Source: Desertivirga xinjiangensis (GTDB lineage Bacteria > Bacteroidota > Bacteroidia > Sphingobacteriales > Sphingobacteriaceae). From it: 64,000 nucleotides of DNA. The notes below the pieces were generated by a model that searched no databases, was not told the origin of the DNA, and saw only the letters and a list, made by a program, of their open reading frames with translations. This document shows, in pieces, positions 26,120 to 48,389 of this stretch; within the stretch, counting starts at the first letter, position 1; every line of letters starts with the position of its first letter. Both the position numbers and the translations under genes were made by a program. The stretch covers positions 62,001 through 126,000 of the forward strand of contig NZ_JAFMZP010000012.1 in NCBI RefSeq assembly GCF_024436435.1. Reading direction: 5' to 3'.

Positions 26120-26150
26120 TATATGACTGGTCCTGTGTTAGGGTTAAGAT

Positions 26151-26178
26151 TGTCCATGCGTTTTTAGTGTTTGTCCAT
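26151..26178 (+). promoter_or_regulatory. Direct-repeat operator, site 1 (upstream of GH95-GH36)
   Basis: TGTCCAT at 26151-26157 and again at 26172-26178, start-to-start distance 21 bp with 14 bp between. The same arrangement occurs at 31000-31027 and 43529-43556. A TTTG follows at 26184-26187. The ATG of the GH95 gene is 217 bp downstream of the second half-site. Two half-sites in tandem on one DNA face are what AraC-family proteins bind, and such a regulator is encoded at 42395-43288. Confidence 0.65.
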
Positions 26179-26395
26179 GTTCATTTGGCATTTATCATGA
26201 TAATTTTATGCAATCTAATTAACTAAGAAATTTAGAAGTAAACCAGGGATTTTTTGATACGACTCACCAAGTCTCGTTAAGCTTTTAACAGTGCAGAATT
26301 ATCAGTTTAAACCGGTGTTGATTATTATGGCTTAGGCATAAACTTCATATTTGCTGGCAACTGATAGAAACATTACAACGAACACTTAGAATAAC

Positions 26396-28783
26396 ATGAT
26401 CCGCAGAAAAACTATTAAGACCATTCTACTTATTGCCTGCCTCACGAAGGTTTCGGCAGGGCAGAGCCAGGAGTTAAAGCTCTGGTATGATAAACCGGCC
26501 AGCATGTGGGAGGAAACGCTTCCGTTGGGCAATGGCAGAATGGGGATGACTCCCGACGGGGGAGTGATTACAGAAAAAATCATCCTTAATGATATTACCT
26601 TATGGTCGGGAAGTCCGCAGGATGCGAATAACTATAATGCGTATAAGGTTCTTCCGGAAATCAGGAAACTCCTTATGGAAGGGAAAAATGATGAGGCCCA
26701 GGAGCTGGTGAATAAGGAATTTGTATGTAAGGGACCTGGATCAGGCGGCCGTCAATGGGGAAAATTCCAGGTAATGGGCCAGCTTGATCTTAATTTTCAA
26801 TATTCTGACGAATCTGCTGGTGTATCTCATCCGGAAAAATTTGAGAACTATAACCGGGAATTAGTTTTGGATAAGGCAATAGCTTCCAGTTCCTTTAAGA
26901 TCAATGGGGTAAACTATAGAAGGGAGTATTTTACAAGCTTCGATGACGATGTCAACATCATCAGGTTAACTGCCGACCGGCCGGGTATACTTAATTGTTC
27001 CCTTAGTTTAAGCAGGCCGGAGAGATTTAAGACAGAAACGCGGGGGACGGAGCTGCGGATGAGCGGACAGCTGGATAACGGAACGGACGGTAAAGGGATG
27101 CAATATATGGTGAAGTTACGTGCTCAGATAAAAGACGGGTCACAGGTGGCTACTGCTAATAGCCTCGTTATCAAAAATGCTTCCGAGATATTGATTTTCA
27201 TTTCAGCCGGAACCGATTTTAGAGATCAGGATTTCACCAGAACGATCGATAAGGAGCTTGCTGTCGCAATGAAGAAGAACTATGAAACGCAAAAGGAGCG
27301 TCATGTCCGGAATTTCTCGAGGCTTTTTTCCAGGGTAAGCATCAATTTGGGCAATGGTGAGAATTCTGCTTTGACCACAGACAGACGTCTTGAAGCCTTT
27401 TACAATAACCCCCAGGCAGATAAAGCTTTACCGGCCTTGTTCTATCAATACGGACGGTATTTATCGATTAGCAGCACACGGCCCGGTCTTCTTCCTCCAA
27501 ATTTGCAGGGACTTTGGGCTCATCAGGTACATACGCCATGGAATGGTGACTATCATCTTGATGTGAATGTGCAGATGAATCACTGGCCTCTTGAAGTTTC
27601 GAACTTGTCTGAGCTCAATCTGCCCTTAGCAGAATTAGTGCGAGGCCTGATTAGAAATGGAGAGAAAACCGCGAAAGCTTATTATAATGCCAGGGGTTGG
27701 ATAGCTCATGTTATTACTAATGTCTGGGGATTTACAGAACCTGGAGAGAGTGCATCCTGGGGTGTAGCTAATGCAGGATCGGGGTGGTTGTGTAATAATT
27801 TATGGGACCATTATGTTTTTACGAAGGATCTCAAATATTTGAAGAGCATTTATCCTATCCTGAAAGGGTCGGCAGAATTTTATAATGATGCTTTACTTAA
27901 AGATCCTAAAAGTGGCTGGTTGGTGACTGGCCCTTCAGTTTCGCCTGAAAATACTTTCTATCTGCCAAATGGTAAAACTGCCAGTGTTACTATAGGACCT
28001 ACTATTGATAATCAAATTGTACGGGAGCTTTTTTCTAATGTTATTTATGCTGCGGAGAAGCTTGACAAGGACGAGTCGTTCATAGAGGTACTTAAGTCTA
28101 AATTGCAGCAGCTTCCGCCTGTTGGCAGAATTTCGGGTGACGGAAGAGTTATGGAATGGTTGGAAGATTACAAGGAAACTGACCCCCAGCATCGTCATAT
28201 CTCACATCTTTATGGCCTATACCCGGCAACTTTAATCACCCCTTCTTCAACTCCGGATCTGGCAGAAGCAGCGAAGAAAACATTGGAAGTAAGGGGGGAT
28301 GACGGCCCAAGTTGGACGATCGCATATAAGTTGTTGTTTTGGGCAAGGCTGCATGATGGTAACCGGTCTTTTAAATTACTCAGGGAGCTTTTGAAGCCTA
28401 CCTTACGAACAGATATCAACTACGGAGCAGGAGGGGGAGTTTATCCTAATCTCCTTTCAGCTGGCCCGCCTTTTCAGATTGATGGTAATTTCGGGGCGGC
28501 TGCAGGAATTGCAGAAATGCTGATTCAAAGTCACGAAGGCTACATTGCTCTCTTGCCGTCTGTTCCTGACCTGTGGAAAGCTTCCGGCGAAGTCAAGGGG
28601 CTTAAAGCAAGAGGTAATTTTACTGTTGATTTCTCTTGGAAAGAGGGAAAGGTGATCTATTACAAGATTTCGTCTCCTAAGCCTGAAAAACTAAAAGTGA
28701 AACTTAACGATCAAGTTATTGAAGTTCAATCCGAAAAAGCTAATTCAACGGATCAATCAGTTAAATATGAAGACAAATTATAG
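26396..28783 (+). CDS. Glycoside hydrolase family 95 (alpha-L-fucosidase / alpha-L-galactosidase type)
   Basis: A 795-residue secreted enzyme with a signal peptide (residues 1-24). The N-terminal GH95 beta domain starts LKLWYDKPASMWEETLPLGN with NDITLWSGSPQD. The (alpha/alpha)6 barrel has NLQGLWAHQVHTPWNGDYH, VNVQMNHWPLE, and MEWLEDYKETDPQHRHISHL with the likely general acid Glu587, then QIDGNFGAAAGIAEML. It releases terminal alpha-L-fucose or L-galactose by inversion. At the usual N-x-N pair it has Asp389-Val-Asn391. The following GH36 gene overlaps its end by 17 bp. The TGTCCAT operator lies upstream. Confidence 0.92.
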   Translation: MIRRKTIKTILLIACLTKVSAGQSQELKLWYDKPASMWEETLPLGNGRMGMTPDGGVITEKIILNDITLWSGSPQDANNYNAYKVLPEIRKLLMEGKNDEAQELVNKEFVCKGPGSGGRQWGKFQVMGQLDLNFQYSDESAGVSHPEKFENYNRELVLDKAIASSSFKINGVNYRREYFTSFDDDVNIIRLTADRPGILNCSLSLSRPERFKTETRGTELRMSGQLDNGTDGKGMQYMVKLRAQIKDGSQVATANSLVIKNASEILIFISAGTDFRDQDFTRTIDKELAVAMKKNYETQKERHVRNFSRLFSRVSINLGNGENSALTTDRRLEAFYNNPQADKALPALFYQYGRYLSISSTRPGLLPPNLQGLWAHQVHTPWNGDYHLDVNVQMNHWPLEVSNLSELNLPLAELVRGLIRNGEKTAKAYYNARGWIAHVITNVWGFTEPGESASWGVANAGSGWLCNNLWDHYVFTKDLKYLKSIYPILKGSAEFYNDALLKDPKSGWLVTGPSVSPENTFYLPNGKTASVTIGPTIDNQIVRELFSNVIYAAEKLDKDESFIEVLKSKLQQLPPVGRISGDGRVMEWLEDYKETDPQHRHISHLYGLYPATLITPSSTPDLAEAAKKTLEVRGDDGPSWTIAYKLLFWARLHDGNRSFKLLRELLKPTLRTDINYGAGGGVYPNLLSAGPPFQIDGNFGAAAGIAEMLIQSHEGYIALLPSVPDLWKASGEVKGLKARGNFTVDFSWKEGKVIYYKISSPKPEKLKVKLNDQVIEVQSEKANSTDQSVKYEDKL

Positions 28784-30980
28784 TTTATTTTATAGTTCAT
28801 TGATGAATCTTTTATTGACCCCATTTCTTGTTTTGACGGGGCTTCTCACGGCGAATGCTCAGACGATAATGCCGGTTGAAACACGAAACACTGCGATGGT
28901 ACTAGAGGTCGATCAGAAAAGGGACTGCCGTATTGCCTATTTGGGCGAAAGACTGGAAAATAAAACGGAATACCAACGTATATCATCTGCCAAAGAATTG
29001 GCGAATGATTATAGCGGCGTATTGAATTCTGTATATACTGCTTCGGGGTCACGGAATTTGGTAGAACCTGCCATCACAGTCACTCATGCGGACGGAAATA
29101 ATTCGCTGGACCTGCGCTATGTAAGTCATGACTTGAAAAAGCTGGATGAAAATGTTTCTGAATTGCGGGTCCATCTGAAAGATCCGGTATATAATTTTGA
29201 AGTGACCCTGCACTATAAGTCGTATTATAACGAAGACGTTGTGGAGCAGTGGAGCGTTATCCGTCATCATGAGAGAGGTAATGTAATACTCCATAAATAT
29301 GCTTCGGCTAACCTGGTAATGAAAGCAGAAAGCTATTGGCTACGTCAGTATTATGGAGACTGGGCAAAAGAGATGCAGGCTGAAGAGACGCAGCTCACCC
29401 ATGGTATAAAGACCCTTGATTCAAAACTCGGCACCCGGGCCAATTTATTCCAGCCCTCCGTTTTCATGGTTTCTATGAATAAGCCAGCCTCTGAGGATGA
29501 AGGCAATGTGCTGTACGGCGCGCTTGAATATAGTGGAAATTTTCGTATTGATCTGGAACTTGATCATCTTAATAATCTGAGGATAATTGCTGGAATTAAC
29601 AACTATGCATCCCCCTATAGTTTGAAAGCAGGAGAGGCTTTCGTTACCCCGGCATTTCTATATACTCTTTCAGGCAAAGGTAAGGGGGAGGCCAGCAGGC
29701 AACTGCACAGGTGGGCAAGAAATTATAAGCTATTAAATGGAAATGGGGATCGTCTTACCTTACTGAATAATTGGGAAGCGACGTATTTCGATTTCAATGA
29801 GAATAAACTTAGTGAGCTTCTTAAGGATACGAAAAAGCTGGGAGTTGATCTGTTCCTTCTGGACGACGGTTGGTTTGCTAATAAATATCCAAGGAATGAT
29901 GACAGGGCGGGGCTTGGTGATTGGAAGGAAAATAAGACGAAGCTTCCTAACGGAATTTCTTCGCTAGTCAAGGAAGCAAAAAATAATGGAGTCAAGTTTG
30001 GGATCTGGATTGAACCAGAGATGGTAAATCCGAAAAGCGAGCTTTACGAGAAGCATCCTAATTGGGTTGTAAAACAACCTGTTCGGGAGGAATACTATTT
30101 TCGAAATCAGCTTGTATTGGATCTGGCTAACCCGACGGTACAGGATTTTGTTTACGGAGTTGTTGACGACCTCTTTACGAAAAACCCGGAGCTTGCATAT
30201 ATAAAATGGGATTGTAATGCGGTAATTTACAACGCGCATTCTTCTTATCTTAAAAACCAGTCTCATTTTTACATTGAGTACATGAGAGGGCTCTATAGAG
30301 TATTGGAAAGGATCCGGGCCAAATATCCGAAAGTACCTATGATGCTATGCTCGGGCGGCGGGGGACGTGTAGATTATGCCGCTTTACAATATTTTACAGA
30401 ATACTGGCCTAGTGATAATACAGATCCTTTAGAACGCATTTTTATGCAATGGGAGTACTCTTATTTCTTTCCGGCCCTTAGTTCTACCAATCACGTTACC
30501 GACTGGGGAAAACAGCCGATAAAGTTTAGGACGGATGTAGCAATGATGGGCAAACTGGGCTTTGACATAGTGGTCAGTAAACTTCCGGAGAATGATCTGA
30601 AGTTTTGCCAGGAAGCCATAAGTAACTATAATGACCTTAAATCTATTATCTGGCATGGCGACCAGTTCCGCTTGTCACACCCGAAGGAAAGCAGTGTAGC
30701 GTCTATGCTGTATTTAGACGAACGCAAAGCAGAAGGAGTGCTATTTAACTACCTGGTCAATAACCGCTACGGGGAAAGAAGCAGGTTGCCTGTTAAGCTG
30801 AAGGGCCTCGATCCTAAAAAGAAATACCGGCTAACAGAGATCAATCTATATCCGGGAACTACATCGACCTTAAGTACTGACATTTCTTATAGCGGAGATT
30901 TTTTAATGAAAATAGGGTTCAACCCTGATGTAAATTCAGGAAGGACAAGCGTGATCCTAAAAATTTCAGAGGTTAAATAG
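28767..30980 (+). CDS. Alpha-galactosidase, glycoside hydrolase family 36
   Basis: I place the start at ATG 28767 rather than 28719 because MKTNYSLFYS leads straight into a signal peptide ending GLLTANAQT; this overlaps the GH95 end by 17 bp. The product is 737 residues. The TIM barrel has LFLLDDGWF, FGIWIEPEMVNPKSELY, YIKWDCNAV (nucleophile Asp482) and YWPSDNTDP (acid/base Asp550), with CSGGGGRVDYA between. It is a retaining exo-alpha-galactosidase, probably periplasmic or surface-exposed, that trims alpha-galactosyl branches. Confidence 0.92.
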   Translation: MKTNYSLFYSSLMNLLLTPFLVLTGLLTANAQTIMPVETRNTAMVLEVDQKRDCRIAYLGERLENKTEYQRISSAKELANDYSGVLNSVYTASGSRNLVEPAITVTHADGNNSLDLRYVSHDLKKLDENVSELRVHLKDPVYNFEVTLHYKSYYNEDVVEQWSVIRHHERGNVILHKYASANLVMKAESYWLRQYYGDWAKEMQAEETQLTHGIKTLDSKLGTRANLFQPSVFMVSMNKPASEDEGNVLYGALEYSGNFRIDLELDHLNNLRIIAGINNYASPYSLKAGEAFVTPAFLYTLSGKGKGEASRQLHRWARNYKLLNGNGDRLTLLNNWEATYFDFNENKLSELLKDTKKLGVDLFLLDDGWFANKYPRNDDRAGLGDWKENKTKLPNGISSLVKEAKNNGVKFGIWIEPEMVNPKSELYEKHPNWVVKQPVREEYYFRNQLVLDLANPTVQDFVYGVVDDLFTKNPELAYIKWDCNAVIYNAHSSYLKNQSHFYIEYMRGLYRVLERIRAKYPKVPMMLCSGGGGRVDYAALQYFTEYWPSDNTDPLERIFMQWEYSYFFPALSSTNHVTDWGKQPIKFRTDVAMMGKLGFDIVVSKLPENDLKFCQEAISNYNDLKSIIWHGDQFRLSHPKESSVASMLYLDERKAEGVLFNYLVNNRYGERSRLPVKLKGLDPKKKYRLTEINLYPGTTSTLSTDISYSGDFLMKIGFNPDVNSGRTSVILKISEVK

Positions 30981-30999
30981 CCTTAAATAAGGATAATAT

Positions 31000-31056
31000 T
31001 GTCCATTGTTTGATGTTCTTTATCCATTTGAATCGCTTTTGTTCTCTGTAACTTTA
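31000..31056 (+). promoter_or_regulatory. Direct-repeat operator site 2 plus promoter upstream of susC
   Basis: TGTCCAT at 31000-31006 and TATCCAT at 31021-31027, again 21 bp apart. The second half-site runs directly into TTTG (31027-31030). TAACTTTA at 31049-31056 lies 18 bp further on, matching the Bacteroidota TTTG / TAnnTTTg promoter. The operator abuts the -33 box, the usual place for an AraC-type activator. The implied start site near 31063 gives a leader of about 310 nt before susC. Confidence 0.65.
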
Positions 31057-31374
31057 TACTATAGATAAGTATTAAAATACTTACCTGTTTCTTTTGAAGC
31101 CTGGCACCTGGTTAGGCGTTCTTGCTAAAGAAATAGGGTTAAACTAATTATAAACCGTATTGATTGAATTTTGAGAGGCAGTGTATGTGATTGAAATAAT
31201 AGATACACGTTAAACTTTATTTAAATAGAAGGATTTAAACCAATTTTCAAAGGATTTTATGAGATGCATTATCAATTCTTAACAGGATAAGTAATTCTTA
31301 TTTTTTAAACTATAGCATATCCTTGTCACACAAATTCGCCGCTGAACCAAAAAATCGATTATTAACCAAGTTTT
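31057..31374 (+). other. Long susC leader region
   Basis: About 310 bp between the inferred promoter and the susC ATG, with no ORF. It is very AT-rich apart from a short GC block around 31098-31125 (GCCTGG...TTAGGC) that could form a weak hairpin. Antisense or leader-based control of susC transcripts is known in Bacteroides; nothing here identifies a specific RNA. Confidence 0.3.
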
Positions 31375-34300
31375 ATGAAGGCAATTTATACGCTCAAAAC
31401 ATTTTTAGCAACAGGGTTTCTGGTCAGGACGTCCAGTGCCTCAGTTATTTTATTGTTGTTTTTTTCAGGCATTTATTCTGAGGCTTACGCTCAGACGCCT
31501 CCAAAGATCATTGTTACCGGCTCTGTGAAGGATTCGGTGGGCGGGCCTTTGATCGGGGTTGCTATTGTTGCAGAGAACCAAAAAAATTTAGGAACCAGTA
31601 CAGATGTGAACGGCCGTTTCGTTTTGGAAGTACCATCGGGAACAGCGCTTAAGATCTCTTACGTTGGATTTGTAGAACAACGGATCGTGGTTAATGAAGC
31701 TAAAAAAACACTGACTATAGTTTTAAAAGAATCTTCGAATTTGATCAATGAAGTTGTAATTACAGCTTTCGGGAAAAAGGAACGAAAGGAGGCTCTTGTG
31801 GGATCGGTCACGAGCATCAAACCAGGTGAGTTGAAAATTCCGGCCAGCAACCTTACAGCAGCTCTTGCAGGCCAGGCTGCCGGGGTGATCGCTTATCAGC
31901 GAAGCGGTCAGCCGGGACAGGATAATGCCTCATTTTTTATTCGGGGAGTCACTACGTTCGGTTACAAAAGGGATCCTTTGATCCTGATAGACAATGTTGA
32001 GCTGACGGCCAACGATTTGGCCAGACTTCAGGTGGATGATATCGCAAGTTTCGTGATCCTGAAGGATGCCAGTGCTACTTCATTATACGGAGCCAGGGGA
32101 GCAAATGGTGTGATCCTGGTAAATACAAAAGAAGGAAAGGAGGGGCCGGCGAAGATCAATTTCAGATCGGAGTTCTCGTCTTCTCAATCTACGCAAACAC
32201 TTGATCTGGTTGATCCTATAGAGTATATGCATCTGTATAATGAAGCTACCCTAACAAGAGACCCAAAACTTCCTTTGCCTTTTTCTCCTGCGAAGATACG
32301 GAACACGCAAGCTACAATTGAGAGTGCTCCAGGGAGTAATCAATATGTTTATCCGGCGGTCGACTGGCTTGATCTGCTATTCAGGAAGACCGCCACAACC
32401 CAAAGAAACAACCTAAGCATAAGCGGCGGCGGCGGCGTCGCGAAGTACTACATAACGGGTACCTATAATGTGGACAACGGGGTATTGAAAACAGATAACC
32501 GCAATAACAACGACAATGGTCTGAAGTTTAAGAACTACCAGTTGCGGTCTAACGTGAATGTCAATATCACCAAAACTACCGAAGCTATTGTGAGACTCTC
32601 TGGTACCTTTAGTGAATATAACGGCCCTATCACGGTCGACGGCTCTTTTGCGTCCGATCTCTATAACGTGGCGGTTCACACAAGCCCGGTTCTGTTTCCT
32701 GCTTTTTATCCTGCAGACGAAGCAAATCTAAACTCTAAACACATTTTGTTTGGGAACAACGGTACAGCCGGAGGTACAAGCAATAATTCCATTCTATATA
32801 ATAATCCTTACGCTGCCTTACTACGCGGTCACAAAAATTCTTCGGAATCAAGAATGTCCGCACAGTTTGAATTAAACCAGGATCTCGAGTTTGTAACCAG
32901 CGGGCTTAAGTTCAGGGGGATATTCAATACGAACAGGTATTCGTATTTTGATTCTCAAACAGCTTATAACCCTTTTTATTACAACATTGGTTCTTACGAC
33001 AGGCTTGAGGATAAGTATACGCTTACCTGGTTAAATCCTCAGCCAACCGGAGATAATGTAGCTACTGAGTATCTTAATTATTCCAGGAATGAACCTAATG
33101 CAAATACGTTCGTGTATTTACAGGGGGCGCTGGATTATAACAAATCCTTGGGGAACCATAATATCAATTCAACCCTGATCGGTACGATGCAGTCTACTGT
33201 TTACTCCAGTGCTAAAGATCCCAGACTCAACATTACCACTTTGCCATACTCCCTGCCCTTTAGGAATATGGGGCTTGCCGGCAGGCTTACTTATTCCTTC
33301 AAGAATAAGTATTTCACAGAATTTAACTTCGGCTATAATGGGTCGGAAAGATTTTCAAAAGAACACCGGTTTGGCTTTTTCCCAACGATCGGTGGTTCCT
33401 GGGTCGTTTCTAATGAAGGATTTTGGAAACAAAACGGCCTGATCAGCCGCCTGAAGATCCGGGCAAGTCATGGTCTGGTGGGTAACGACGCAATCGGCGA
33501 CCAAAGGTTCTTCTATCTTTCAGACGTAGACCTGGCTACTGGTCCCAACTATTCTCAATTTGGATTTAATAATCAATATGAACGTAAGGGTGTGTTCATA
33601 AGAAGTTATGAAAATTCTGGTATAACATGGGAAACGTCTAGACAAACCAATTTGGCCATAGAGGCTACTTTGTTAAACAATCTGAGTGTTATCGCAGAAG
33701 TTTATCAGAATCACAGGTACAATATCTTGCGCAAGCGCGATATTCCCGTAACTGAGGGGCTTGAATCTGATGTGTTTACAAATCTTGGTGTGGTAGATTC
33801 AAAGGGTATCGATCTATCGGCAGATTATGGAAGATCGTTCGCCAGTGGCCTTGGTCTTTCATTCAGGGGTAATTTCACTTATTCCACTAATAAGTATACT
33901 TATATAGAGGAACCGAATTACGCGGAGCCCTGGAGACATTTTATCGGGCAGCCTATCAGCCGGGGCTATGGCTATATCGCTGAGCGTTTGTTTGTAGACG
34001 ATGAAGAAGTGGCCAATTCGCCTTCTCAGATCATGTCTGTGCAGGACGAATGGGGAAACAAGTATACGAGTACGCCTCGTGGCGGCGACATAAAGTATCG
34101 CGACATGAACGGAGATGGAAAAATCGATAATCTTGACCTGGTATTTCTGGGATATCCGCAAACTCCGGAGATTGTTTTTGGCTTTGGGTTTTCTTCCCGG
34201 TTTAAGGGCCTTGACCTCTCTGCTTTCGTTCAGGGACAATCGCGCGTATCATTTTTTGTTGATCCTACCAGGGTAAGTCCTTTTATTCCAAGTTTTCAAA

Positions 34301-34671
34301 AGTACATTTACGGTAATACCCAGGTTTTGCAGCAGTTTGCCGACAGTCATTGGTCTGAAGAGAATCAGGATCTTTATGCACAATACCCAAGGCTTGGTAC
34401 CGATGCATCGGCAATCGCCAATAACTTACAATCGAGTACATGGTGGCTTCGCGATGCAAGCTTTCTACGGTTAAAATCACTTGAGATCGGATACACCCTT
34501 CCGAAACGGCTGCTAAGCAGAATGCACGTAAACAACTGCAGGCTATATGTTAACGGTCTGAACTTATTTACACTTAGTTCATTCAAGATGTGGGATCCGG
34601 AGCAGGGAGGAAACGGTTTCGCATATCCTATACAAAAAGTATTTAATGTGGGTTTAAGCGTGAATCTATAA
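31375..34671 (+). CDS. SusC/RagA-family TonB-linked outer-membrane transporter
   Basis: A 1098-residue protein. The signal peptide ends near SEAYAQT. A carboxypeptidase-D-regulatory-like N-terminal domain follows (TGSVKDSVGGPLIGVAIV), then the TonB-box region (NEVVITAFGKKERKEALVGS) and the plug domain with FIRGVTTFG, DPLILIDNVEL and SATSLYGARGANGVILVNTK. The rest is a 22-strand-type barrel ending KVFNVGLSVNL. It imports oligosaccharides through the outer membrane using TonB energy and works with the SusD lipoprotein encoded 18 bp downstream. No N-terminal anti-sigma STN domain is evident, consistent with control by the local AraC regulator instead. Confidence 0.95.
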   Translation: MKAIYTLKTFLATGFLVRTSSASVILLLFFSGIYSEAYAQTPPKIIVTGSVKDSVGGPLIGVAIVAENQKNLGTSTDVNGRFVLEVPSGTALKISYVGFVEQRIVVNEAKKTLTIVLKESSNLINEVVITAFGKKERKEALVGSVTSIKPGELKIPASNLTAALAGQAAGVIAYQRSGQPGQDNASFFIRGVTTFGYKRDPLILIDNVELTANDLARLQVDDIASFVILKDASATSLYGARGANGVILVNTKEGKEGPAKINFRSEFSSSQSTQTLDLVDPIEYMHLYNEATLTRDPKLPLPFSPAKIRNTQATIESAPGSNQYVYPAVDWLDLLFRKTATTQRNNLSISGGGGVAKYYITGTYNVDNGVLKTDNRNNNDNGLKFKNYQLRSNVNVNITKTTEAIVRLSGTFSEYNGPITVDGSFASDLYNVAVHTSPVLFPAFYPADEANLNSKHILFGNNGTAGGTSNNSILYNNPYAALLRGHKNSSESRMSAQFELNQDLEFVTSGLKFRGIFNTNRYSYFDSQTAYNPFYYNIGSYDRLEDKYTLTWLNPQPTGDNVATEYLNYSRNEPNANTFVYLQGALDYNKSLGNHNINSTLIGTMQSTVYSSAKDPRLNITTLPYSLPFRNMGLAGRLTYSFKNKYFTEFNFGYNGSERFSKEHRFGFFPTIGGSWVVSNEGFWKQNGLISRLKIRASHGLVGNDAIGDQRFFYLSDVDLATGPNYSQFGFNNQYERKGVFIRSYENSGITWETSRQTNLAIEATLLNNLSVIAEVYQNHRYNILRKRDIPVTEGLESDVFTNLGVVDSKGIDLSADYGRSFASGLGLSFRGNFTYSTNKYTYIEEPNYAEPWRHFIGQPISRGYGYIAERLFVDDEEVANSPSQIMSVQDEWGNKYTSTPRGGDIKYRDMNGDGKIDNLDLVFLGYPQTPEIVFGFGFSSRFKGLDLSAFVQGQSRVSFFVDPTRVSPFIPSFQKYIYGNTQVLQQFADSHWSEENQDLYAQYPRLGTDASAIANNLQSSTWWLRDASFLRLKSLEIGYTLPKRLLSRMHVNNCRLYVNGLNLFTLSSFKMWDPEQGGNGFAYPIQKVFNVGLSVNL

Positions 34672-34689
34672 CCGCGAAAAGATTAAGCT

Positions 34690-36594
34690 ATGAAATTATA
34701 CTACAAACTGATCTGTTTTACAATGTTTTGTACGGTAAGCATATCATGTAAAAAATATTTAGACATCGTCCCGGATAATGTGGGTACTCTTGAATACGCC
34801 TTCAGAAATCGCAATGAGGCCGAAAACTACCTGTTCGGCTGTTATTCAACTATGCAGCAGCTGGCAGATGTAACGAAGAATCCAGGCTTTACAACTTCTT
34901 CTGAAATTATATATCCTATTCTTCAAACTCGTTTTTTCGATGAATCGGGATTTAACCTGATAAGGGGGATACAAACGCCGGCAGATCCGATACTGAATTA
35001 TTGGTCAGGCAATAATGCACAGTCTATGTATAAGGCCATCAGAAGATGTAACATTATGCTGGAAAATATTGATGAGCCAATAGATCTGAAAGAGCCTGAA
35101 AAGAAGAGATGGATTGCTGAAGTAAAGTTTCTGAAGGCCTTTTATCATTATTATCTGATCAGGATGTATGGGCCGGTAGTTCTGATCAAGGAAAATAATC
35201 CGACTGATGTTAACTTAGAAGCTACCAAACGTAAGCGGGCTACCCTTGATGAATCTTTTGAATATGTGCTGTCGCTGATGAACGAAGCTATTCCTGACCT
35301 TCCCCCTGTAATTGAAAATCAGACAAGGGAGTTTGGCCGGATCACGAAATTTATGGCAATGTCACTTAAGGCAGAAATGCTTGCTACAGCAGCAAGTCCT
35401 TTATTCAATGGAAACCCTGATTATGCTAATTTTAAGGATAAGGTTGGACGAAACTTATTTCCTGTAGCTTATGATGCCGATAAATGGAAAGACGCTGCCG
35501 ATGCCTGTAAAGCTGCAATAGAGGAATGCGAGGCACAAGGTCTTAAATTAAACAAAGAGGTTCCGACAACCAATGTCGCGGAGGCCTCGATTGAGATGAA
35601 GGGCGTTCTTGTTCTCCAAACTACAATTACCAGGAGATGGGAAGAAAACCCGGAGCTGATCTGGGCCCTGAACTATGGATTTAATTATCAGGGATATACC
35701 ATTCCTAAATTGACATCCAAGGCTGTTAGTATGGCCAATACCTATCCGTCGAACTGGGCTGTTCCGATCTCTACAACAGAATTGTTCTATACCAATAACG
35801 GGGTTCCTATTAACGAAGATAAAAATTGGGATTATGCAGATCGCTTTACTCCTTTGCCGGGCGACGAGGCGAACAAGCATTATATTAAACAGGATTATCA
35901 AACGGCCAAGGCTCACTTTAACAGAGAAAAACGTTTTTACGCCAGTCTTGCTTTTGATGGGGGGATATGGTTTGGAAATGGCAAAACAAAAGAGAGTGAG
36001 GCGTACCATGTTGAAGCAAGAAGCCAGTTTGCGATTGCGGGTCCTAAGAGTTTAAACTCAACAAATATTACGGGGTATTGGCCTAAAAAGCTGGTTAACT
36101 ACCTGACGAACATGGACGAGTCATTCACTCCGGCAGATTTTAAAATGCCTTTAATTCGTTTAGCCGGTCTTTATCTGCTTTATGCAGAGGCGCTGAATGA
36201 GGTTCAGGGGCCTGATGCAGAAGTCTTTAAATATCTTGATATGGTGAGGGAAAGAGCCGGCTTAAAAGGTATACAAGAGTCCTGGGCTGCTTATTCCAAG
36301 AATCCTGGTAAGCCCGAAACTAAAGAAGGCTTACGTCAGATCATTCACCAGGAAAGAAGGATTGAATTATGTTTTGAAGGCCAGAGCGGTTGGGACCTCC
36401 GTCGTTGGAAAGAATTGCAGGGTGTTTTAGGCAGGCCATTGCAAGGCTGGAACATCACTGAAGAGGATGCTGCGAGTTATTATCGTCCGCAAACAGTCCT
36501 TATACCTGTTTTTGGTTTGAAGGATTACCTGTGGCCTATTCAGACCTTCGATGTGATTGTGAATGAGAATCTTACCCAAAATCCTTACTGGTAG
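34690..36594 (+). CDS. SusD/RagB-family nutrient-binding lipoprotein
   Basis: A 634-residue lipoprotein with lipobox SISC (Cys20) followed by KKYLDIVPDNVG. It has the SusD TPR-like helices (FLKAFYHYYLIRMYGPVVL, FMAMSLKAEMLATAASPLF) and the C-terminal RagB signature YLDMVRERAGL, RRIELCFEGQSGWDLRRW and a final NENLTQNPYW. It forms the lid of the SusC transporter at the cell surface and binds the glycan. It is cotranscribed with susC and two further lipoprotein genes. Confidence 0.95.
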   Translation: MKLYYKLICFTMFCTVSISCKKYLDIVPDNVGTLEYAFRNRNEAENYLFGCYSTMQQLADVTKNPGFTTSSEIIYPILQTRFFDESGFNLIRGIQTPADPILNYWSGNNAQSMYKAIRRCNIMLENIDEPIDLKEPEKKRWIAEVKFLKAFYHYYLIRMYGPVVLIKENNPTDVNLEATKRKRATLDESFEYVLSLMNEAIPDLPPVIENQTREFGRITKFMAMSLKAEMLATAASPLFNGNPDYANFKDKVGRNLFPVAYDADKWKDAADACKAAIEECEAQGLKLNKEVPTTNVAEASIEMKGVLVLQTTITRRWEENPELIWALNYGFNYQGYTIPKLTSKAVSMANTYPSNWAVPISTTELFYTNNGVPINEDKNWDYADRFTPLPGDEANKHYIKQDYQTAKAHFNREKRFYASLAFDGGIWFGNGKTKESEAYHVEARSQFAIAGPKSLNSTNITGYWPKKLVNYLTNMDESFTPADFKMPLIRLAGLYLLYAEALNEVQGPDAEVFKYLDMVRERAGLKGIQESWAAYSKNPGKPETKEGLRQIIHQERRIELCFEGQSGWDLRRWKELQGVLGRPLQGWNITEEDAASYYRPQTVLIPVFGLKDYLWPIQTFDVIVNENLTQNPYW

Positions 36595-36618
36595 CAGACC
36601 GTTTAATTTTTGCAAATC

Positions 36619-37863
36619 ATGAATACTAAGAATATAAGAATGAGAACAAGTACGAGCTTCAGATTTTCTGCTAACAGTATGCTAATCCTCATGATCATAG
36701 CATTATTTACATCTTGTAAAAAAAGTGAATCTCCGGTTGAAGTGATATCAACCGATAAAACAAAGCCAGATGGGGTTACTGATGTAAAAGTGGAAAATCT
36801 GAATGGTGCAGCTCAGATCACTTATAAGTTACCCGATTCAAAAAATATCTTATACATCCTGGCACGTTATAACATCAATGATAGCCGGGTAAGGGAGTCT
36901 AAGACAAGTTACTACCGGGATACAATCATAGCTGAAGGCTTTGCTGAGGAAAAGGAGTATGATGTCACTCTGTACACTGTTAGCCGGGCAAATGTCATGT
37001 CAGATCCTATTGTAGTCAAAGTACATCCGAAAACACCCAACTATATTTTGATCAATGAAGGCTTAGAAATTGCACCTGATTTTGGAGGGGCAAGTTTTAT
37101 AGGATCTAATCCTAATAAGGTACCAGTCTCAGTTCATCTTATGGCGTTCAATGATGCCACCGGGAAGTATGAAGAGCAGGAACCCGAGTACATCAGTGGT
37201 GATAAGGTAGACTTGTCAATAAGGGGATTTGATCCCAGGGAACATAAATTTGGAGTATATACAACAGACAGATATGGCAATGTGTCCCCAACAAGATATA
37301 CCACGCTTACGCCCTTCTTTGAAACTTTACTGGATAAGAGCAAATTTTACACCTATAAGTTGCCAAGTGATAGCCCCATTGGATATGGATGGGAGTTCCG
37401 GTATTTCTTTGACGGCAATTTAGGTGATCCGGGATGGCATACCTTATCGGCACCTACTAAACAAGGGACGTTTGGACTGGGTGTTACCGCTAAGATCAGC
37501 AGGTTCGTTCTGTGGAACAGATTGCCGGACATGTTTGGATACCAGAACCCTCGAAAGATCACGATTTGGGGATCATTGAAAGATAATCCTCAGGATTCGG
37601 CACTGCCGAAGAATTCAGATCCGGGGACAGTTGCCGGCGACTGGGTAAATATGGGAAACTTCACTTTTCCTGATCCACCGTCTGGGCTGCCAGGAAACCA
37701 GGCTAATGCAGCAGATAATGCCTTCGCCGCAGCGGGTATCAATTTTAAGATGCCTTCATCTTCTCCGCTGACTAAGTTCATAAGGTTTGAATGTACGCAA
37801 ACGTGGGGAGGGCTGGACTATATAAACGCCATGGAGATATCAGTCTATGGAAGTCCTCAATAG
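36619..37863 (+). CDS. Surface lipoprotein with DUF4959/DUF5126/DUF5000-type domains
   Basis: The ATG at 36619 is preferred over a TTG at 36610. The 414-residue product has a signal peptide with lipobox LFTSC and SCKKSES after it. The N-terminal Ig-like part has DGVTDVKVENLNGAAQITY (DUF4959 type). A middle domain follows, and the C-terminal half is a discoidin-like domain (IGYGWEFRYFFDGN, SRFVLWNRLP, KFIRFECTQTWGG, NAMEISVYGS). Such proteins sit downstream of SusCD and bind glycan at the surface, replacing SusE/F. It is paralogous to the next gene. Confidence 0.82.
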   Translation: MNTKNIRMRTSTSFRFSANSMLILMIIALFTSCKKSESPVEVISTDKTKPDGVTDVKVENLNGAAQITYKLPDSKNILYILARYNINDSRVRESKTSYYRDTIIAEGFAEEKEYDVTLYTVSRANVMSDPIVVKVHPKTPNYILINEGLEIAPDFGGASFIGSNPNKVPVSVHLMAFNDATGKYEEQEPEYISGDKVDLSIRGFDPREHKFGVYTTDRYGNVSPTRYTTLTPFFETLLDKSKFYTYKLPSDSPIGYGWEFRYFFDGNLGDPGWHTLSAPTKQGTFGLGVTAKISRFVLWNRLPDMFGYQNPRKITIWGSLKDNPQDSALPKNSDPGTVAGDWVNMGNFTFPDPPSGLPGNQANAADNAFAAAGINFKMPSSSPLTKFIRFECTQTWGGLDYINAMEISVYGSPQ

Positions 37864-37878
37864 TTAATCTTTTTATAT

Positions 37879-39099
37879 ATGAAAAAGTATAGCATGAAAA
37901 GTATTTTTTACATTACCAATCTTCTTTTTGGACTGTTTATACTAACTGGTTGCGAAAAGTATGCAGATGATTACAAAGATTACCTGAATGATGAGGAGAT
38001 CGTTTATCCCGGTCTGGCTCGTAATGTGCGTTACTACGCTGGAAACCAAAGAGCGGTACTGGTTTGGAATCCCAGCCCGGATCGAAGTATTGAGAGATAT
38101 ATAATATTTTGGAACAATGGCGAGGATTCTGTGAGTGTCGCTGCTACCTCTTATGATCCGGAGGAAGACCTAAGTGTTTCAATACCTAATCTGAACGAGT
38201 ATGCCTACAGCTTCCAGATTGTAGCAGTTGACCGGGAAGGCCGCAAGTCCATAGGTCAGGAGATCAATAACGTAAGAGTATATGGTCCAGTTTATCAGTC
38301 TACATTAACCAATCGTCCTTACAAGACAGCAAACCCTTTTGTAAGAAAAAACGACGGCAGTGTTGAGCTTAATTTCGGTAAAGCGGATAGCCTGAACTTT
38401 TCTACAACCATCCGTTATACAAATGTCAATAACCAGATAGAGGAACGCGAGCTTGCAGCTGAAAGTAATTCAATATCTCTTCCTAACTATAAGACAGGGA
38501 CAGCTATCCAATACCGGTCTTCATATAAGCCGGAAAAAGATGCAGCCGACGCTATTAACGTGGAAGCTTTTGAAGAGCTGCCGGTCGAGCTTGACAGGGC
38601 TCTGATTGCGCCCTTTCGTTTGCCTTCGGATATTCGCTCAGAGTATGGCTGGGAGTTACAGTACCTGTGGGATAATAATACGGGGGAGCCTGGCTTTCAC
38701 ACGCCGGGAACTTCCATGCCACAATGGTTTAGTATCGACTTAGGTGTAAATGTGCCTTTAGTGAGCTTTTCGTTATGGCAACGAATCTCGGGCCTGTTTA
38801 ATTATGGAAATTTAAAGAAGTTTGAAGTTTGGGGCAGCAATAACCCCAATCCCGACGGAAGTTGGGAAAGCTGGACCAAACTAATGACCTGCAACTCCTT
38901 TAAGCCTTCAGGTCAGCCAGTGGGTCAGAACAGCGATGCAGACCGTGCATTTGCAGAGGCGGGCGAACCTTTTGTGTTTCCTGCCGGAACTCCCGATGTA
39001 AGATATTTAAGGTTTAAAGTGCTGGATACCTGGGGAAATACAAATTACCTTCACCTTGTCGAGCTTAAGTTTTTCAGGAAGCTTGGTGTGACTAATTAA
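37879..39099 (+). CDS. Surface lipoprotein with DUF4998-type and discoidin-like domains
   Basis: A 406-residue lipoprotein with lipobox ILTGC. The N-terminal fibronectin-like part has GNQRAVLVWNPSPDRSIERY (DUF4998 type). The C-terminal discoidin-like domain has SEYGWELQYLWDNNTGEPGF, VSFSLWQRISGLFNYGNLKK and RYLRFKVLDTWGN. It aligns in order with the C-terminal half of the preceding lipoprotein (YGWEFRY / YGWELQY; LWNRLPDMFGY / LWQRISGLFNY), so the two arose by duplication. A role in capturing glycan for SusCD is inferred. Confidence 0.8.
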   Translation: MKKYSMKSIFYITNLLFGLFILTGCEKYADDYKDYLNDEEIVYPGLARNVRYYAGNQRAVLVWNPSPDRSIERYIIFWNNGEDSVSVAATSYDPEEDLSVSIPNLNEYAYSFQIVAVDREGRKSIGQEINNVRVYGPVYQSTLTNRPYKTANPFVRKNDGSVELNFGKADSLNFSTTIRYTNVNNQIEERELAAESNSISLPNYKTGTAIQYRSSYKPEKDAADAINVEAFEELPVELDRALIAPFRLPSDIRSEYGWELQYLWDNNTGEPGFHTPGTSMPQWFSIDLGVNVPLVSFSLWQRISGLFNYGNLKKFEVWGSNNPNPDGSWESWTKLMTCNSFKPSGQPVGQNSDADRAFAEAGEPFVFPAGTPDVRYLRFKVLDTWGNTNYLHLVELKFFRKLGVTN

Positions 39100-39131
39100 T
39101 AGAACAATATTCAATCAGATAAACGCCTTTT

Positions 39132-41339
39132 ATGGTTAACTTCCCGGGTGTAAAAAAAGCAGTCACCCTCTGTTTTATATTATCGTCTATAGTTAATGAG
39201 CTTTATGCGCAGCAATTACAGCGTTCGGCCGACAGCCTGGTGTTTTCCTCATTAACCGTAAGGGTGGTGCTGAACACGAAGCGAGGGACGGTAGACTTCA
39301 AATTTGCCCACGCTAATTCCTTTAATAATACTATGTGTTACATAGAGGAAGTAAATAGTGGCTTTTTCCGCTCTGTAGATTTTTCCTCTCATACCGCCCA
39401 GGTTAGGGAAGTAAATGATGCTTTAGGAAAGGGAAGTATCATTGAAATCACCCATCAGGGCGAGGGCAAACCTTTAAGGTTGTTACAGAGCATTACCGTC
39501 TATAAGGACAAGTCTTTTATAGTGGCAAGTTGCCGTGCGGAATCGCGGACCGGCCCTATCGAGTCAAGGAATATAAGCCCATTTGCTCTCTCTGCGGATG
39601 GAGGCAGGGCAATTGTTCATGGTCGTAACCCAAGGGTTCTGGATGTTCCATTTGATAATGATAATTGGGTAAAGGTTTTGACCCAAAGCTGGGCTAAACC
39701 GTTTTCCGGGACCGGCTATGAATTTATCTCTTTATATGATCAGGATTCTCATTCGGGCACTGTTATCGGAAGTTTAAGGCATGATTTCTGGAAAACCGGG
39801 ATCCGGTACCATTCCTCTGATCGTTTCGGGCAGCTCGATTCGCTTGTGATTTTTGGAGGTGCCTCCAGCAGTGACAATCCCCGTCTTCCTGCAGAACAAG
39901 GAGGTTACGATGGTACCCATGACCTGGTTGCGCATGGTACTGCGATTGGACAGGCTATTGAAAGCCCTTTACTATTTATTGGCTCTTCAGCGGATGTAAG
40001 GAAGGTGTTCAGGGATTACGGAGATGCGAACTCCGCCGTATCCGGGGGATTGAAATGGAATAAGCCGGCGCCTTTCTACTGGAATAGTTTTGGTGTCGAA
40101 AATGTATTAGGCTGGTCGAAAATTATGATGCCTGATGGCGTAAATGCCATCTCAGACACGCTAAAAAAACTTGCTAATTTTAATAAGCAGCAACCGGTGA
40201 TCAGTATTGACTCTTATGATCAGAGCATTTACTCTACCAAAGTTTTGGCCTCCATCAATAGTTACTTGCAGAAGAATAATCAGAAAATTGGTTTTTACTT
40301 CATTCCGTTTGCGTTATGGACATGGAAAAATTCTATATCAAACGACAAATTACAGGGAACAGACTATGCGGTTGCCGATGTGGTTCTGAGAGATGATGGA
40401 GGTAATCCCATAGCGTACAAGGACGGTGATTGGGCGGCCTATGCGCTTGATCCTACTCATCCGGCAGTGCGTCAATACGTAGTTCAGCAATTGAAAAAAG
40501 CGAAAACAATAGGCGCCACCTTTCTGAAAATTGATTTTCTGACTGCCGGAAGCCTTGAATCCAGCAGGCGCTATGATAAATCTGTACGAACAGGTTTACA
40601 AGCCTATAACCAGGGAATGAAGATGTTGAAAGGCCTGGTAGATTCTGTCATGGGACCTGATATCTTTATTACCATGGCCATCTCGCCTATGTTTCCTCAT
40701 CAATATGCGCATACCCGGTTTATTTCCACAGACGTTTACTCGCATTTGAGGGATGATCAGCCCGGCTTTCCTCATTATGGAAGTACCGCTTCTTCCATGA
40801 TCACAGCTTCGCACATGACCTGGACGCAGGGTACTTTATGGCCGTACACAAATATGGATGTTCTGATCATGAATAACTTTCAGAAGAATCCGGATTTAAC
40901 GGAGCAGGAAGTGAAAGTGAGGCTGTATAGCATGATGACAATGGGAAGTATTATGGGTGATGGCTCGGATCTGAGAAATAAAACAGCGTCTGGGCGAGCT
41001 GCTGTCTACATGAATAATGCAGATGTGTGTGCATTTTTTAAGCAGCCGAAAGCATTTACCCCGCTCCGGTTCGCAGACGGTACAGTGCAGGATCAGCAAT
41101 TGTCTTTTTTCCTTCCCGGGAATACGGTACTTGTATCCGTGTTCAATTTTAAGAAGGATGGGAGTTTCAAAGAGAGCTTTAATTGCAGCGATCTTGGCTT
41201 GAGAGAGGGAGACTACGAGGTCAGAGATTTTCTAACAGGCAGAGTGCTTGCCAGTATCAGGCAGGGTGAAACTTCTTTCAGCCTTGTGGTGCCACAAAAA
41301 GATGCTGTATTGGCAAAAATAGTTCGCATATCGAAATGA
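39132..41339 (+). CDS. Clan GH-D alpha-galactosidase-like glycoside hydrolase
   Basis: A 735-residue exported protein with a signal peptide (ends NELYAQ). A beta-sandwich N-terminal domain is followed by a TIM barrel from about residue 310 (PFYWNSFGVENVLGWSKI, VISIDSYDQS, IGFYFIPFALWTW) with FLKIDFLTAG as the probable nucleophile strand and FISTDVYSHLRDD as the acid/base position, in the spacing seen in GH27/GH36 enzymes. A C-terminal beta-domain follows. It is more divergent than the GH36 upstream, and the substrate linkage may differ. Its stop overlaps the epimerase ATG (ATGA, 41336-41339). Confidence 0.78.
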   Translation: MVNFPGVKKAVTLCFILSSIVNELYAQQLQRSADSLVFSSLTVRVVLNTKRGTVDFKFAHANSFNNTMCYIEEVNSGFFRSVDFSSHTAQVREVNDALGKGSIIEITHQGEGKPLRLLQSITVYKDKSFIVASCRAESRTGPIESRNISPFALSADGGRAIVHGRNPRVLDVPFDNDNWVKVLTQSWAKPFSGTGYEFISLYDQDSHSGTVIGSLRHDFWKTGIRYHSSDRFGQLDSLVIFGGASSSDNPRLPAEQGGYDGTHDLVAHGTAIGQAIESPLLFIGSSADVRKVFRDYGDANSAVSGGLKWNKPAPFYWNSFGVENVLGWSKIMMPDGVNAISDTLKKLANFNKQQPVISIDSYDQSIYSTKVLASINSYLQKNNQKIGFYFIPFALWTWKNSISNDKLQGTDYAVADVVLRDDGGNPIAYKDGDWAAYALDPTHPAVRQYVVQQLKKAKTIGATFLKIDFLTAGSLESSRRYDKSVRTGLQAYNQGMKMLKGLVDSVMGPDIFITMAISPMFPHQYAHTRFISTDVYSHLRDDQPGFPHYGSTASSMITASHMTWTQGTLWPYTNMDVLIMNNFQKNPDLTEQEVKVRLYSMMTMGSIMGDGSDLRNKTASGRAAVYMNNADVCAFFKQPKAFTPLRFADGTVQDQQLSFFLPGNTVLVSVFNFKKDGSFKESFNCSDLGLREGDYEVRDFLTGRVLASIRQGETSFSLVVPQKDAVLAKIVRISK

Positions 41340-42382
41340 AAGTAACGGCCTTAAATGTCAGCATCAAAAGCTGGGGACTCTATAATGATCAGGAGATATT
41401 CCTGGTTAAATGGGAAAATAGTGATGGAAGCTATGTAGAGTTTACTAATTATGGCGCCACCATTGTATCGGTCGTGGTGCCTGATGCCGGTGGAGATCTT
41501 AGTCAGGTAGTATTAGGGTTTAATAAGTTCGAGGCCTATCTCGCCGACACCTGTTATATCGGTTCTACCGTTGGACGTTTCGCAAATCGCATAAGCAGAG
41601 CACGTTTCACCCTTGATGATCGGGAGGTACTCCTTGAGGCAAACGACAACTTAAATAGCAATCATGGCGGCTTCAGTGGCTTTAATTCAAAAGTGTTTAA
41701 TATTGATATTACGTCAGATGCGGTTATTTTTTCTCTGATCAGCGAAGACGAAGAGGGCGGCTACCCAGGAAATCTCGAACTTAAAGTAAAGTATACCTGG
41801 ACCGAGAGTTATGAACTATCAATCACCTATCAAGCTATTTCTGATAAAAAGACCATTGCTAATTTTACTAATCACTCTTACTTCAATTTATCCGGGATTA
41901 ATAATAATATTACAGATCATAGCCTATTGGTAAATGCCGGGAAAATGCTTGAAATGAGAGAGGACTACCTGCCAAGTGGTAAAGTGATTCCATGTGGTGC
42001 CGGGCGATTTGATTCCGATAAGCTGAGCGATAAGTTAGTTATGAACGACGGCAGACTGACAGGTGTAAATAACTATTACATCCTGGATCGCAGGCCAGGA
42101 CCAGGTGAGTTGCAGCATGCCTGTACTTTAAAGGAGGAAACAACAGGCCGGAGCCTCGAGGTTTTCACAAGCTATCCCGGGCTAATGGTTTATACAGGCG
42201 ATTACCTTTCTAGCAATTTCCCAGGGAACAGAAATGCAGCTTTAACGGAATTTGGTGGAATCTGCCTCGAATGCCAGCATTATCCTGATAGTCCTAATCA
42301 GCCGGGTTTTCCCCAGGCCATCCTGGAGCCGGCAGAACTTTATGAAGAAGTTATCCTTTTCAAATTTTTTTATAACAATTGA
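41336..42382 (+). CDS. Aldose 1-epimerase (galactose mutarotase family)
   Basis: A 348-residue enzyme with no signal peptide. It has the GalM residues: GSTVGRFANRIS, NHGG (first catalytic His), ANFTNHSYFNLSG (second His) and CLECQHYPDSPNQPGFP, which holds the catalytic Glu. It interconverts alpha and beta anomers of hexoses such as galactose in the cytoplasm, readying released sugar for a kinase. It is coupled to the upstream hydrolase by a 4-bp overlap. Its presence supports galactose as a product of this locus. Confidence 0.92.
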   Translation: MKVTALNVSIKSWGLYNDQEIFLVKWENSDGSYVEFTNYGATIVSVVVPDAGGDLSQVVLGFNKFEAYLADTCYIGSTVGRFANRISRARFTLDDREVLLEANDNLNSNHGGFSGFNSKVFNIDITSDAVIFSLISEDEEGGYPGNLELKVKYTWTESYELSITYQAISDKKTIANFTNHSYFNLSGINNNITDHSLLVNAGKMLEMREDYLPSGKVIPCGAGRFDSDKLSDKLVMNDGRLTGVNNYYILDRRPGPGELQHACTLKEETTGRSLEVFTSYPGLMVYTGDYLSSNFPGNRNAALTEFGGICLECQHYPDSPNQPGFPQAILEPAELYEEVILFKFFYNN

Positions 42383-42403
42383 TCTTTAAAAAAATCAATT
42401 GTT
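42374..42403. terminator. Bidirectional terminator overlapping both stop codons
   Basis: AACAATTGAT (42374-42383) and ATCAATTGTT (42394-42403) are perfect 10-bp arms around CTTTAAAAAA. Each arm encodes Asn-Asn-stop: the left arm closes the epimerase gene and the right arm, read on the minus strand, closes the AraC-family gene. A/T runs flank each side as in a two-way terminator. Confidence 0.7.
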
Positions 42404-43288
42404 CTTCTTGTGCAGCTTTTTATACTGGGAAGGCGACATTCCAATCACCTTCTTAAATAACCTTGAAAAGTAAAAAGGGTCGTCAATACTTAATTCACTG
42501 CAAATTTCCTTAATGCTCTTATCCGTAAAATACAAATACTGACAAGATTTCTGGATCTTCAAATAATTGAAATAATTGATCGGGGAGGAGCCTGTTTTCT
42601 TTTTGAAAATACGGCAATAGTGCGGAACCGATATTTTTTCCTGTCTGGCGAGTCCTTCGATGTCCAGTTGCAAATGCAAATTAGCCTTCATATACCTGAT
42701 AGAATTACTCACCGGGTCGGTATCATAGATCGATGGATTAGCTTCCTTATAATAGATAACTGAAGTAACGAAATGCAGAAGATTGAGGTTCATTATTTCA
42801 AGCTCTTTCTCTTTGTAGCTGCTGTCGATGATCGAGTAGATCTGCTCAAATTGTGTGATCCGGCTCTCCTCAAAAGGGATTGCCCTTACTTCAGGCACAT
42901 CATTGAAGAGAAATCTCTTGTATATTAAATCTGCAATCTCTCCAGTGAAATGCACCCAATAAATGCTCCATGGAGATCTCAGGTCACTCCTGTAACTGTG
43001 TTTTATATTCCTTGGAATTATAAAAAACGTATTGGGTTCAATCTTATACTCAGTCTCGTTCAGGGTGACGAAGCCAATTCCTTCGGTACAATAGATAAAA
43101 ATATATTCATCGCAGCCTGATTCCCGTTCAATTTCATGCTGACTAGCGCGTGGGTAATGGCCGATCGCGGTGAGGTAAAACCGGTTAATTATTGGGTTTA
43201 GTAAGATGGTTTGATGAATTTCGGGCGGCAGCACAAATAAGCGCTGTCCCAGAAAGCCTTCTTTAATTCCTTTCTTTTGATCCTGCAC
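42395..43288 (-). CDS. AraC-family transcriptional regulator of the utilisation locus
   Basis: A 297-residue regulator. The N-terminal cupin-like sensor (about residues 20-165) has GIGFVTLNETEYKIEPNTFF and a HSYRSDLRSPWSIYWVHFTG strand. The C-terminal domain has two helix-turn-helix units, LARQEKISVPHYCRIFKKKT and ICSELSIDDPFYFSRLFKKV, ending IGMSPSQYKKLHKK. AraC proteins of this layout bind sugars and then two tandem DNA half-sites. It sits in the middle of the locus, divergent from the MFS operon. The 21-bp-spaced TGTCCAT repeats before three operons are the likely targets. Activation on sugar binding is inferred. Confidence 0.93.
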   Translation of the reverse strand: MQDQKKGIKEGFLGQRLFVLPPEIHQTILLNPIINRFYLTAIGHYPRASQHEIERESGCDEYIFIYCTEGIGFVTLNETEYKIEPNTFFIIPRNIKHSYRSDLRSPWSIYWVHFTGEIADLIYKRFLFNDVPEVRAIPFEESRITQFEQIYSIIDSSYKEKELEIMNLNLLHFVTSVIYYKEANPSIYDTDPVSNSIRYMKANLHLQLDIEGLARQEKISVPHYCRIFKKKTGSSPINYFNYLKIQKSCQYLYFTDKSIKEICSELSIDDPFYFSRLFKKVIGMSPSQYKKLHKKNN

Positions 43289-43528
43289 GTAAAAAGAGGT
43301 TAAAATTAGTTTCGTTGAAAGACCTAAGTATTTGTCTTTATGTTTTCCTGAAGATAAGTAAAAACGATAATATAATCTATATCGTCTTTTAGTTTTTAAA
43401 TATTTATGTCGGAATTATTTAAATAGGGGCTTGGTTAGAGTGTAGTATAAATTCAATTGCTACAAATGTGGTGGATGCCTGTCAAGCTGAACGTGGTTTT
43501 ATTTATCCGGTGTTCCCTAAGAGAATAT

Positions 43529-43556
43529 TGTCCATTTTTTATTACTAATCGTCCAT
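43529..43556 (+). promoter_or_regulatory. Direct-repeat operator, site 3 (upstream of the MFS operon)
   Basis: TGTCCAT at 43529-43535 and CGTCCAT at 43550-43556, 21 bp apart. The second half-site ends 47 bp before the ATG at 43604. This placement rules out the longer ORF beginning at 43457 as the coding start, since it would put the operator inside the gene. The site also lies 240 bp upstream of the divergent araC-type gene, so autoregulation is possible. Confidence 0.65.
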
Positions 43557-43603
43557 GTGTCAAAGCCGTTAAAATAAGCAATTTTAAAAACCAATTATTA
43601 GAT

Positions 43604-44947: not shown

Positions 44948-44966
44948 TCAATCCTTACAATAAATA

Positions 44967-48323: not shown

Positions 48324-48389
48324 TTAGGGTAGAACACACTAAAGGACCTTTTGCTGCTGAGAAGCCAGCTTCAATCAAATTATAATGTG

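Follow-up and report, generated by a model that had tools for sequence, protein, structure and literature searches.

Three operons of a sugar utilization locus in Desertivirga xinjiangensis are each preceded by a direct repeat of a TCCAT-containing word with a period of 21 bp. Each repeat is very probably an operator of the AraC-family protein encoded in the same locus, a predicted sugar-responsive activator of all three operons (Table 1). A preliminary description of the window (the whole 64-kb stretch of DNA that was analyzed) had reported the three pairs; their positions, words, and 21-bp spacing proved exact in every case, and their placement ahead of the GH95-GH36, susCD, and MFS operons of one locus held up against related genomes.

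Table 1. Operators, promoter elements, and genes of the locus (window coordinates; PWM, position matrix)
Feature	Position	Strand	Description
Operator 1	26140..26181	+	Precedes GH95-GH36 operon; half-sites TGTCCAT 26151-26157 and TGTCCAT 26172-26178; PWM 31.6 bits
-7 box TAATTTTA	26201..26208	+	GH95-GH36 promoter; offset +50 from operator start
GH95 family gene	26396..28783	+	First gene of operon 1; Pfam
GH36 melibiase-family gene	28719..30980	+	Second gene of operon 1; overlaps GH95 end, start codon uncertain; Pfam
Operator 2	30989..31030	+	Precedes susC; half-sites TGTCCAT 31000-31006 and TATCCAT 31021-31027; PWM 33.7 bits
Operator 2 upstream box	30989-30994	+	AAGGAT; 5/6 to AATSRT consensus
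-7 box TAACTTTA	31049..31056	+	susC promoter; offset +49
Operon 2, whole	31375..42382	+	
SusC	31375-34671	+	Operon 2
SusD	34690-36594	+	Operon 2
DUF4959/5126/5000 protein	36610-37863	+	Operon 2
DUF4998/5000 protein	37879-39099	+	Operon 2
GH36-like protein	39132-41339	+	Operon 2; without Pfam match
Aldose 1-epimerase	41336-42382	+	Operon 2
AraC-family regulator	42395..43288	-	297 aa; N-terminal cupin sensor (PF02311), C-terminal double helix-turn-helix; proposed activator
Operator 3	43518..43559	+	Between regulator gene and divergent MFS operon; half-sites TGTCCAT 43529-43535 and CGTCCAT 43550-43556; PWM 28.7 bits
-7-like box CAATTTTA	43579..43586	+	Operator 3; offset +50; first base departs from TAnnTTT, weaker
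Operon 3, whole	43604..51344	+	
XylE-like MFS sugar porter	43604-44947	+	Operon 3; ATG start
DUF5107-TPR protein	44967-48323	+	Operon 3
GH2-type protein	48351-51344	+	Operon 3

Operators and genes of the locus

The half-site period is 21 bp in all three pairs, and a pattern scan of the 64 kb found no other sites with ≤1 mismatch. At ≤3 mismatches, the window holds 12 sites compared to 4.8 expected, a number that none of 100 shuffles reached. A position matrix derived only from loci of other species' genomes scores ≥10 bits over the 64 kb at the three operators alone, and the top score in 200 simulated 64-kb sequences of the same dinucleotide makeup was 20.8 (mean, 8.1). Mismatch counts, matrix scores, and simulated windows thus rule out a chance origin of the repeats. 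In the same matrix scan of the window, no operator oriented toward the regulator gene reached 10 bits.

Tandem half-sites two helical turns apart had been suggested to suit an AraC-family protein, and comparison with related genomes favors this. The 21-bp spacing alone is enriched. In the orthologous loci, 24 pairs with ≤1 mismatch have this spacing, compared to no more than 3 at any other. These counts also bear on a second origin, by which the repeats would be chance or remnants of a heptamer repeat, (TTGTCCA)n, a third copy of which also falls at 21 bp. Stretches resembling (TTGTCCA)n that match the pattern do exist in two related genomes, G027 and G037. However, spacings of 7, 14, and 28 bp account for 1, 1, and 3 pairs, and the spacers in the window are nonrepetitive. 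The spacing counts rule out that the 21-bp spacing arose from a heptamer microsatellite, and the conservation and promoter geometry described below contradict this as well; the probability of such an origin is negligible. The tandem TTGTCCA/TTATCCA stretches (G027:C21:681324, G027:C2:81537, G037:C20:126615, and G037:C59:44639) mimic both operator word and spacing and are a trap for pattern searches.

For the MFS gene, the ATG at 43604 is preferred because the mechanically listed TTG at 43457 puts the operator inside the gene. The GH36-like protein of operon 2 has 735 residues and a distant likeness to alpha-galactosidases of known structure. Three successive open reading frames at 23583-26068 (TPR/DUF3857, transglutaminase core, and a third reading frame) look like a single DUF3857-transglutaminase gene split by frameshifts or stops.

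The AraC-family regulator

The regulator gene at 42395 had been assigned to the AraC family in the preliminary description, and its Pfam domains bear this out. The C terminus matches the AraC-type double helix-turn-helix (PF12833, 8.7e-17; PF00165, 3.1e-17), and the N terminus matches a sugar-binding-type cupin sensor (AraC_binding; PF02311, 1.4e-15). The structure is predicted with a pLDDT of 91, and the folds nearest to its sensor part are those of the lactose sensor BgaR and of AraC; this modeled likeness fits sugar sensing. AraC is also the best NCBIfam match, with a score against NF007860 (E. coli-type AraC) of 96.9 bits, below the equivalog cutoff of 208. The second helix-turn-helix of the regulator, DDPFYFSRLFKK, resembles DDQLYFSRVFKK of AraC. 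Much of the AraC family shows conservation here, so we regard the likeness only as compatible. The protein consists of a cupin and an AraC domain alone, without the architecture of a hybrid two-component system (HTCS), i.e., a periplasmic sensor, histidine kinase, and receiver.

Conservation in orthologous loci

Orthologues of the regulator were found in at least 80 named genomes, and loci were taken from 80 genome records. They range over Mucilaginibacter, Pedobacter, Chitinophaga, Pontibacter, and Flavobacterium, with the orders Sphingobacteriales, Chitinophagales, Cytophagales, and Flavobacteriales represented, plus a Gracilimonas genome and a Rhodothermia bacterium. The preliminary description had proposed such loci as a check of conservation, and the repeat is indeed kept in 77 of the 80, with one to five operators each. 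Operator matches number 146 at 14 bits and 141 at 16 bits, compared to 5 and 1, respectively, in a reversed control, counts that are partly by construction because the better ones among the same 80 loci served to train the matrix; the window sites, the spacing histogram, and the -7 box, in contrast, are not by construction. Nearly all of the matches at 14 bits (141 of 146) are intergenic.

The regulator's own upstream region holds an outward-reading operator in 71 of 80 loci (median gap, 102 bp). Operator targets include SusC (42), MFS (33), epimerase (28), and GH95 (5) genes, along with 31 others. The combination AraC-MFS-DUF5107 is the common core, with an MFS gene in 56 and DUF5107 in 54 of the 80 loci; a counterpart of the DUF5107-TPR protein of the window travels with the XylE-like porter and the regulator in those 54. 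By the matrix, 3 of the 80 loci have no operator at 14 bits, and several loci of distant relatives (35 to 37% identity; G030, G006, and G005) have no convincing site at 2 mismatches. Thus, the operator code drifts. The whole genome of G030 contains 15 operator-plus-promoter matches at ≤2 mismatches, far more than other genomes.

Association of the operator with the regulator

The pattern YRTCCAT-N14-YRTCCAT has 17 matches in the 5.5-Mb genome. None of the 14 outside the locus scores above 11.0 bits, and all are within open reading frames, the least clear being L009 (a 96-codon frame) and L013. Response regulators account for seven of these 14, through their receiver-domain motif MD[IMV][MQ]MP[DEN]MDG on the complement strand, and this explains why the pattern occurs as often as it does. 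The whole-genome count that had been proposed earlier therefore reveals a coding and low-scoring background, and the suspicion that the repeat is merely one of many random matches fails.

A refined pattern yields two clusters with the right flanks, one being the window locus and the other a locus on contig C11. High-scoring sites occur in this genome only at these two loci, each of which has a regulator of this subfamily. The paralogous AraC regulator (C11:620406-621278) is 35% identical to that of the window, and its locus has three operators of the same type, at 597753, 620074, and 621428. A regulon wider than these two loci is rejected because of the coding or low-scoring nature of the other pattern matches. 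The two regulons may cross-talk. The region C11:597753-621485 (L058, L059, and L161) encodes susCD, GH92, a Melibiase_C protein, an SSF transporter, and a GDSL lipase, and another GH95 gene is found at the distant operator of this locus.

The same association is seen across genomes. In 201 genomes of the family, searched for the exact operator plus -7 box with a regulator cutoff of E ≤1e-50, 28 of the 33 exact matches listed are within 25 kb of a subfamily regulator, a proximity expected by chance for ~0.5% of sequence; for the other five matches listed, no regulator was detected on the same contig. A second sample drew 149 genomes from the whole class; of its four other genomes that encode a regulator, three carry a match on the same contig and no more than 25 kb from it. 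Among the regulator-less genomes of this sample, 9 of 144 have any match, and at least two of those nine are heptamer tandem repeats.

These data speak against binding of the sites by another regulator, either an HTCS or an AraC-type paralogue, with the neighboring araC gene being incidental. The repeat accompanies orthologues of the regulator across several orders amid otherwise varied gene content, the operator usually lies in the regulator's own intergenic region, and the sites of the C11 paralogue surround that paralogue. On the other hand, the paralogue's sites are near-identical, and there are many AraC-type proteins in the genome (66 candidates at first look), so a paralogue could bind as well. 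Furthermore, 16 HTCS regulators of Bacteroides thetaiotaomicron, which have AraC-type domains, are predicted to act on direct repeats spaced 21 bp apart on average (PMC3878776). Overall, we consider control by another regulator to be very unlikely and infer that the AraC-family protein of the window binds the repeats.

Promoter geometry

Of 141 operators, 101 have the sequence TAnnTTT at an offset of 49 or 50 bp from the first half-site; the mean for other offsets is 0.46. The -7 box was absent from the search criteria for those operators. In flavobacteria, TAnnTTTG is documented as the -7 consensus for sigma-A (PMC9723704). With the -7 box at this fixed offset, the end of the proximal half-site and the TT that follows it fall near the -33 position in all three promoters of the window. 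The proximal half-site thus lies over the -35 (-33) region, and its distance from the promoter is fixed, as in araI-type operators. The second half-site had been said to touch the -33 box at susC; it does, but this is not a peculiarity of susC, since all three sites are alike.

Ahead of the first half-site is a weaker conserved box, ~ATSRT, which begins 10 bp before that half-site and 12 bp before the TCCAT core. It is present at that offset in 31 of 99 nonredundant operators and in no more than 10 at any other. The composite operator can be written as ~ATSRT-N3-ATWRTCCAT-N12-TTWRTCCATTT-N19/20-TAnnTTT.

The constant 49 to 50 bp to the -7 box fits an activator-dependent promoter, as does the fact that no clear TTTG is seen at -33 save for the TT after the half-site. 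Repressor sites usually tolerate variable positions, and the constant position of the operator is unlike this. The geometry therefore argues against a protein that is chiefly a repressor, blocking RNA polymerase at -33 until sugar arrives, although a half-site against the -33 region suits occlusion as well as contact and E. coli AraC both activates and represses (PMC2893085). We regard such a role as unlikely and activation as the probable function of the regulator.

In the mechanism that we propose, an AraC-type dimer would lie on one face of the DNA, with each TCCAT half-site taken by one DNA-binding domain and two helical turns from one half-site to the next. The half-site farther from the promoter would be bipartite, comprising the TCCAT core and the weaker ATSRT box, and the promoter-proximal half-site would abut the -33 region of a sigma-A promoter, with the -7 box 49 to 50 bp from the operator start. 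Binding of a sugar released by the locus to the cupin domain could then lead to contact with RNA polymerase, so that the three operons would be switched on together, i.e., GH95-GH36; susCD with its surface proteins and epimerase; and MFS-DUF5107-GH2. Operator 3, which adjoins the regulator gene, may act on the regulator's own divergent promoter too. Because the locus contains GH95, GH36, epimerase, and sugar-porter genes, our guess is that the inducer is galactose- or arabinose-like.

Comparison with known systems

The dimer arrangement proposed here, with the inner half-site at the -33 region, is familiar from araBAD of E. coli, and the araI1-I2 operator (araBAD, araE) is the nearest E. coli counterpart. 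In I1 of E. coli AraC, box B is TATCCAT/TCCAT, and the operator overlaps the -35 region (PMC2893085). The Bacteroidota operators likewise have a TCCAT(A) direct repeat of the box B type with a 21-bp period. The E. coli I1-I1 site has TATCCAT words at the same 21-bp distance (letters from PMC2893085, Table 1), and the Bacteroidota matrix gives it 15.8 bits, whereas 2000 shuffles reached at most 6.5. The natural I1-I2 site shows no match to the matrix. The two systems also share a regulator gene divergent from a target and an operator over the -35 (-33) region. However, the box A sequence TAGC, which precedes box B by 11 bp, is found at 1 of 141 first half-sites and at none of 141 second half-sites, and its absence rules out a strict E. 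coli AraC operator. The weak ATSRT box is found in place of box A, and the Bacteroidota promoters are of the -7/-33 type, unlike those of E. coli AraC.

Two systems of Bacteroides are also similar. The HTCS regulators share the AraC-type DNA-binding domain and the predicted direct repeats, 21 bp on average, before susC operons (PMC3878776), but they have periplasmic, kinase, and receiver domains, whereas the protein described here is a 297-residue cupin-sensor protein. RhaR, an AraC-family L-rhamnose regulator, is a one-component protein for which a 21-bp-periodic direct repeat has been predicted; its motif, compared by description alone, is described as unique to its own group and concerns rhamnose genes (PMC3870299).

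Since 21-bp direct repeats had been predicted for Bacteroides HTCS and RhaR, the kind of operator is already known, and it is well supported that the regulon is new but of a familiar kind, with no new mechanism. In the open-access literature, which is not the whole literature, we found no description of the regulator, operator word, or promoter geometry, and TGTCCAT together with AraC gave unrelated matches only. The earlier reading as an undescribed local regulon operator thus stands as far as a regulon operator is concerned. It is not local, as this type of operator is that of an AraC subfamily and is also used at the C11 locus, and its kind has been predicted in Bacteroides.

A tentative reading, which we hold to be possible rather than probable, is that the TCCAT core and 21-bp period form a code of ancient origin, common to the sugar-sensing AraC proteins of Proteobacteria and Bacteroidota. 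Box A and the effector pocket would have changed, the proximal half-site would replace the -33 element in Bacteroidota, and paralogues in one genome would share nearly the same sites. If this is true, regulons of paralogous regulators in one genome may cross-talk.

One-component AraC control of sugar use loci in environmental Bacteroidota is little mapped compared to that by gut HTCS. The operator is sharp and testable, predicts a regulon in many genomes, and could serve in the design of inducible promoters for Bacteroidota. It also ties the genes for the DUF5107-TPR protein and the XylE-like porter to the regulon.
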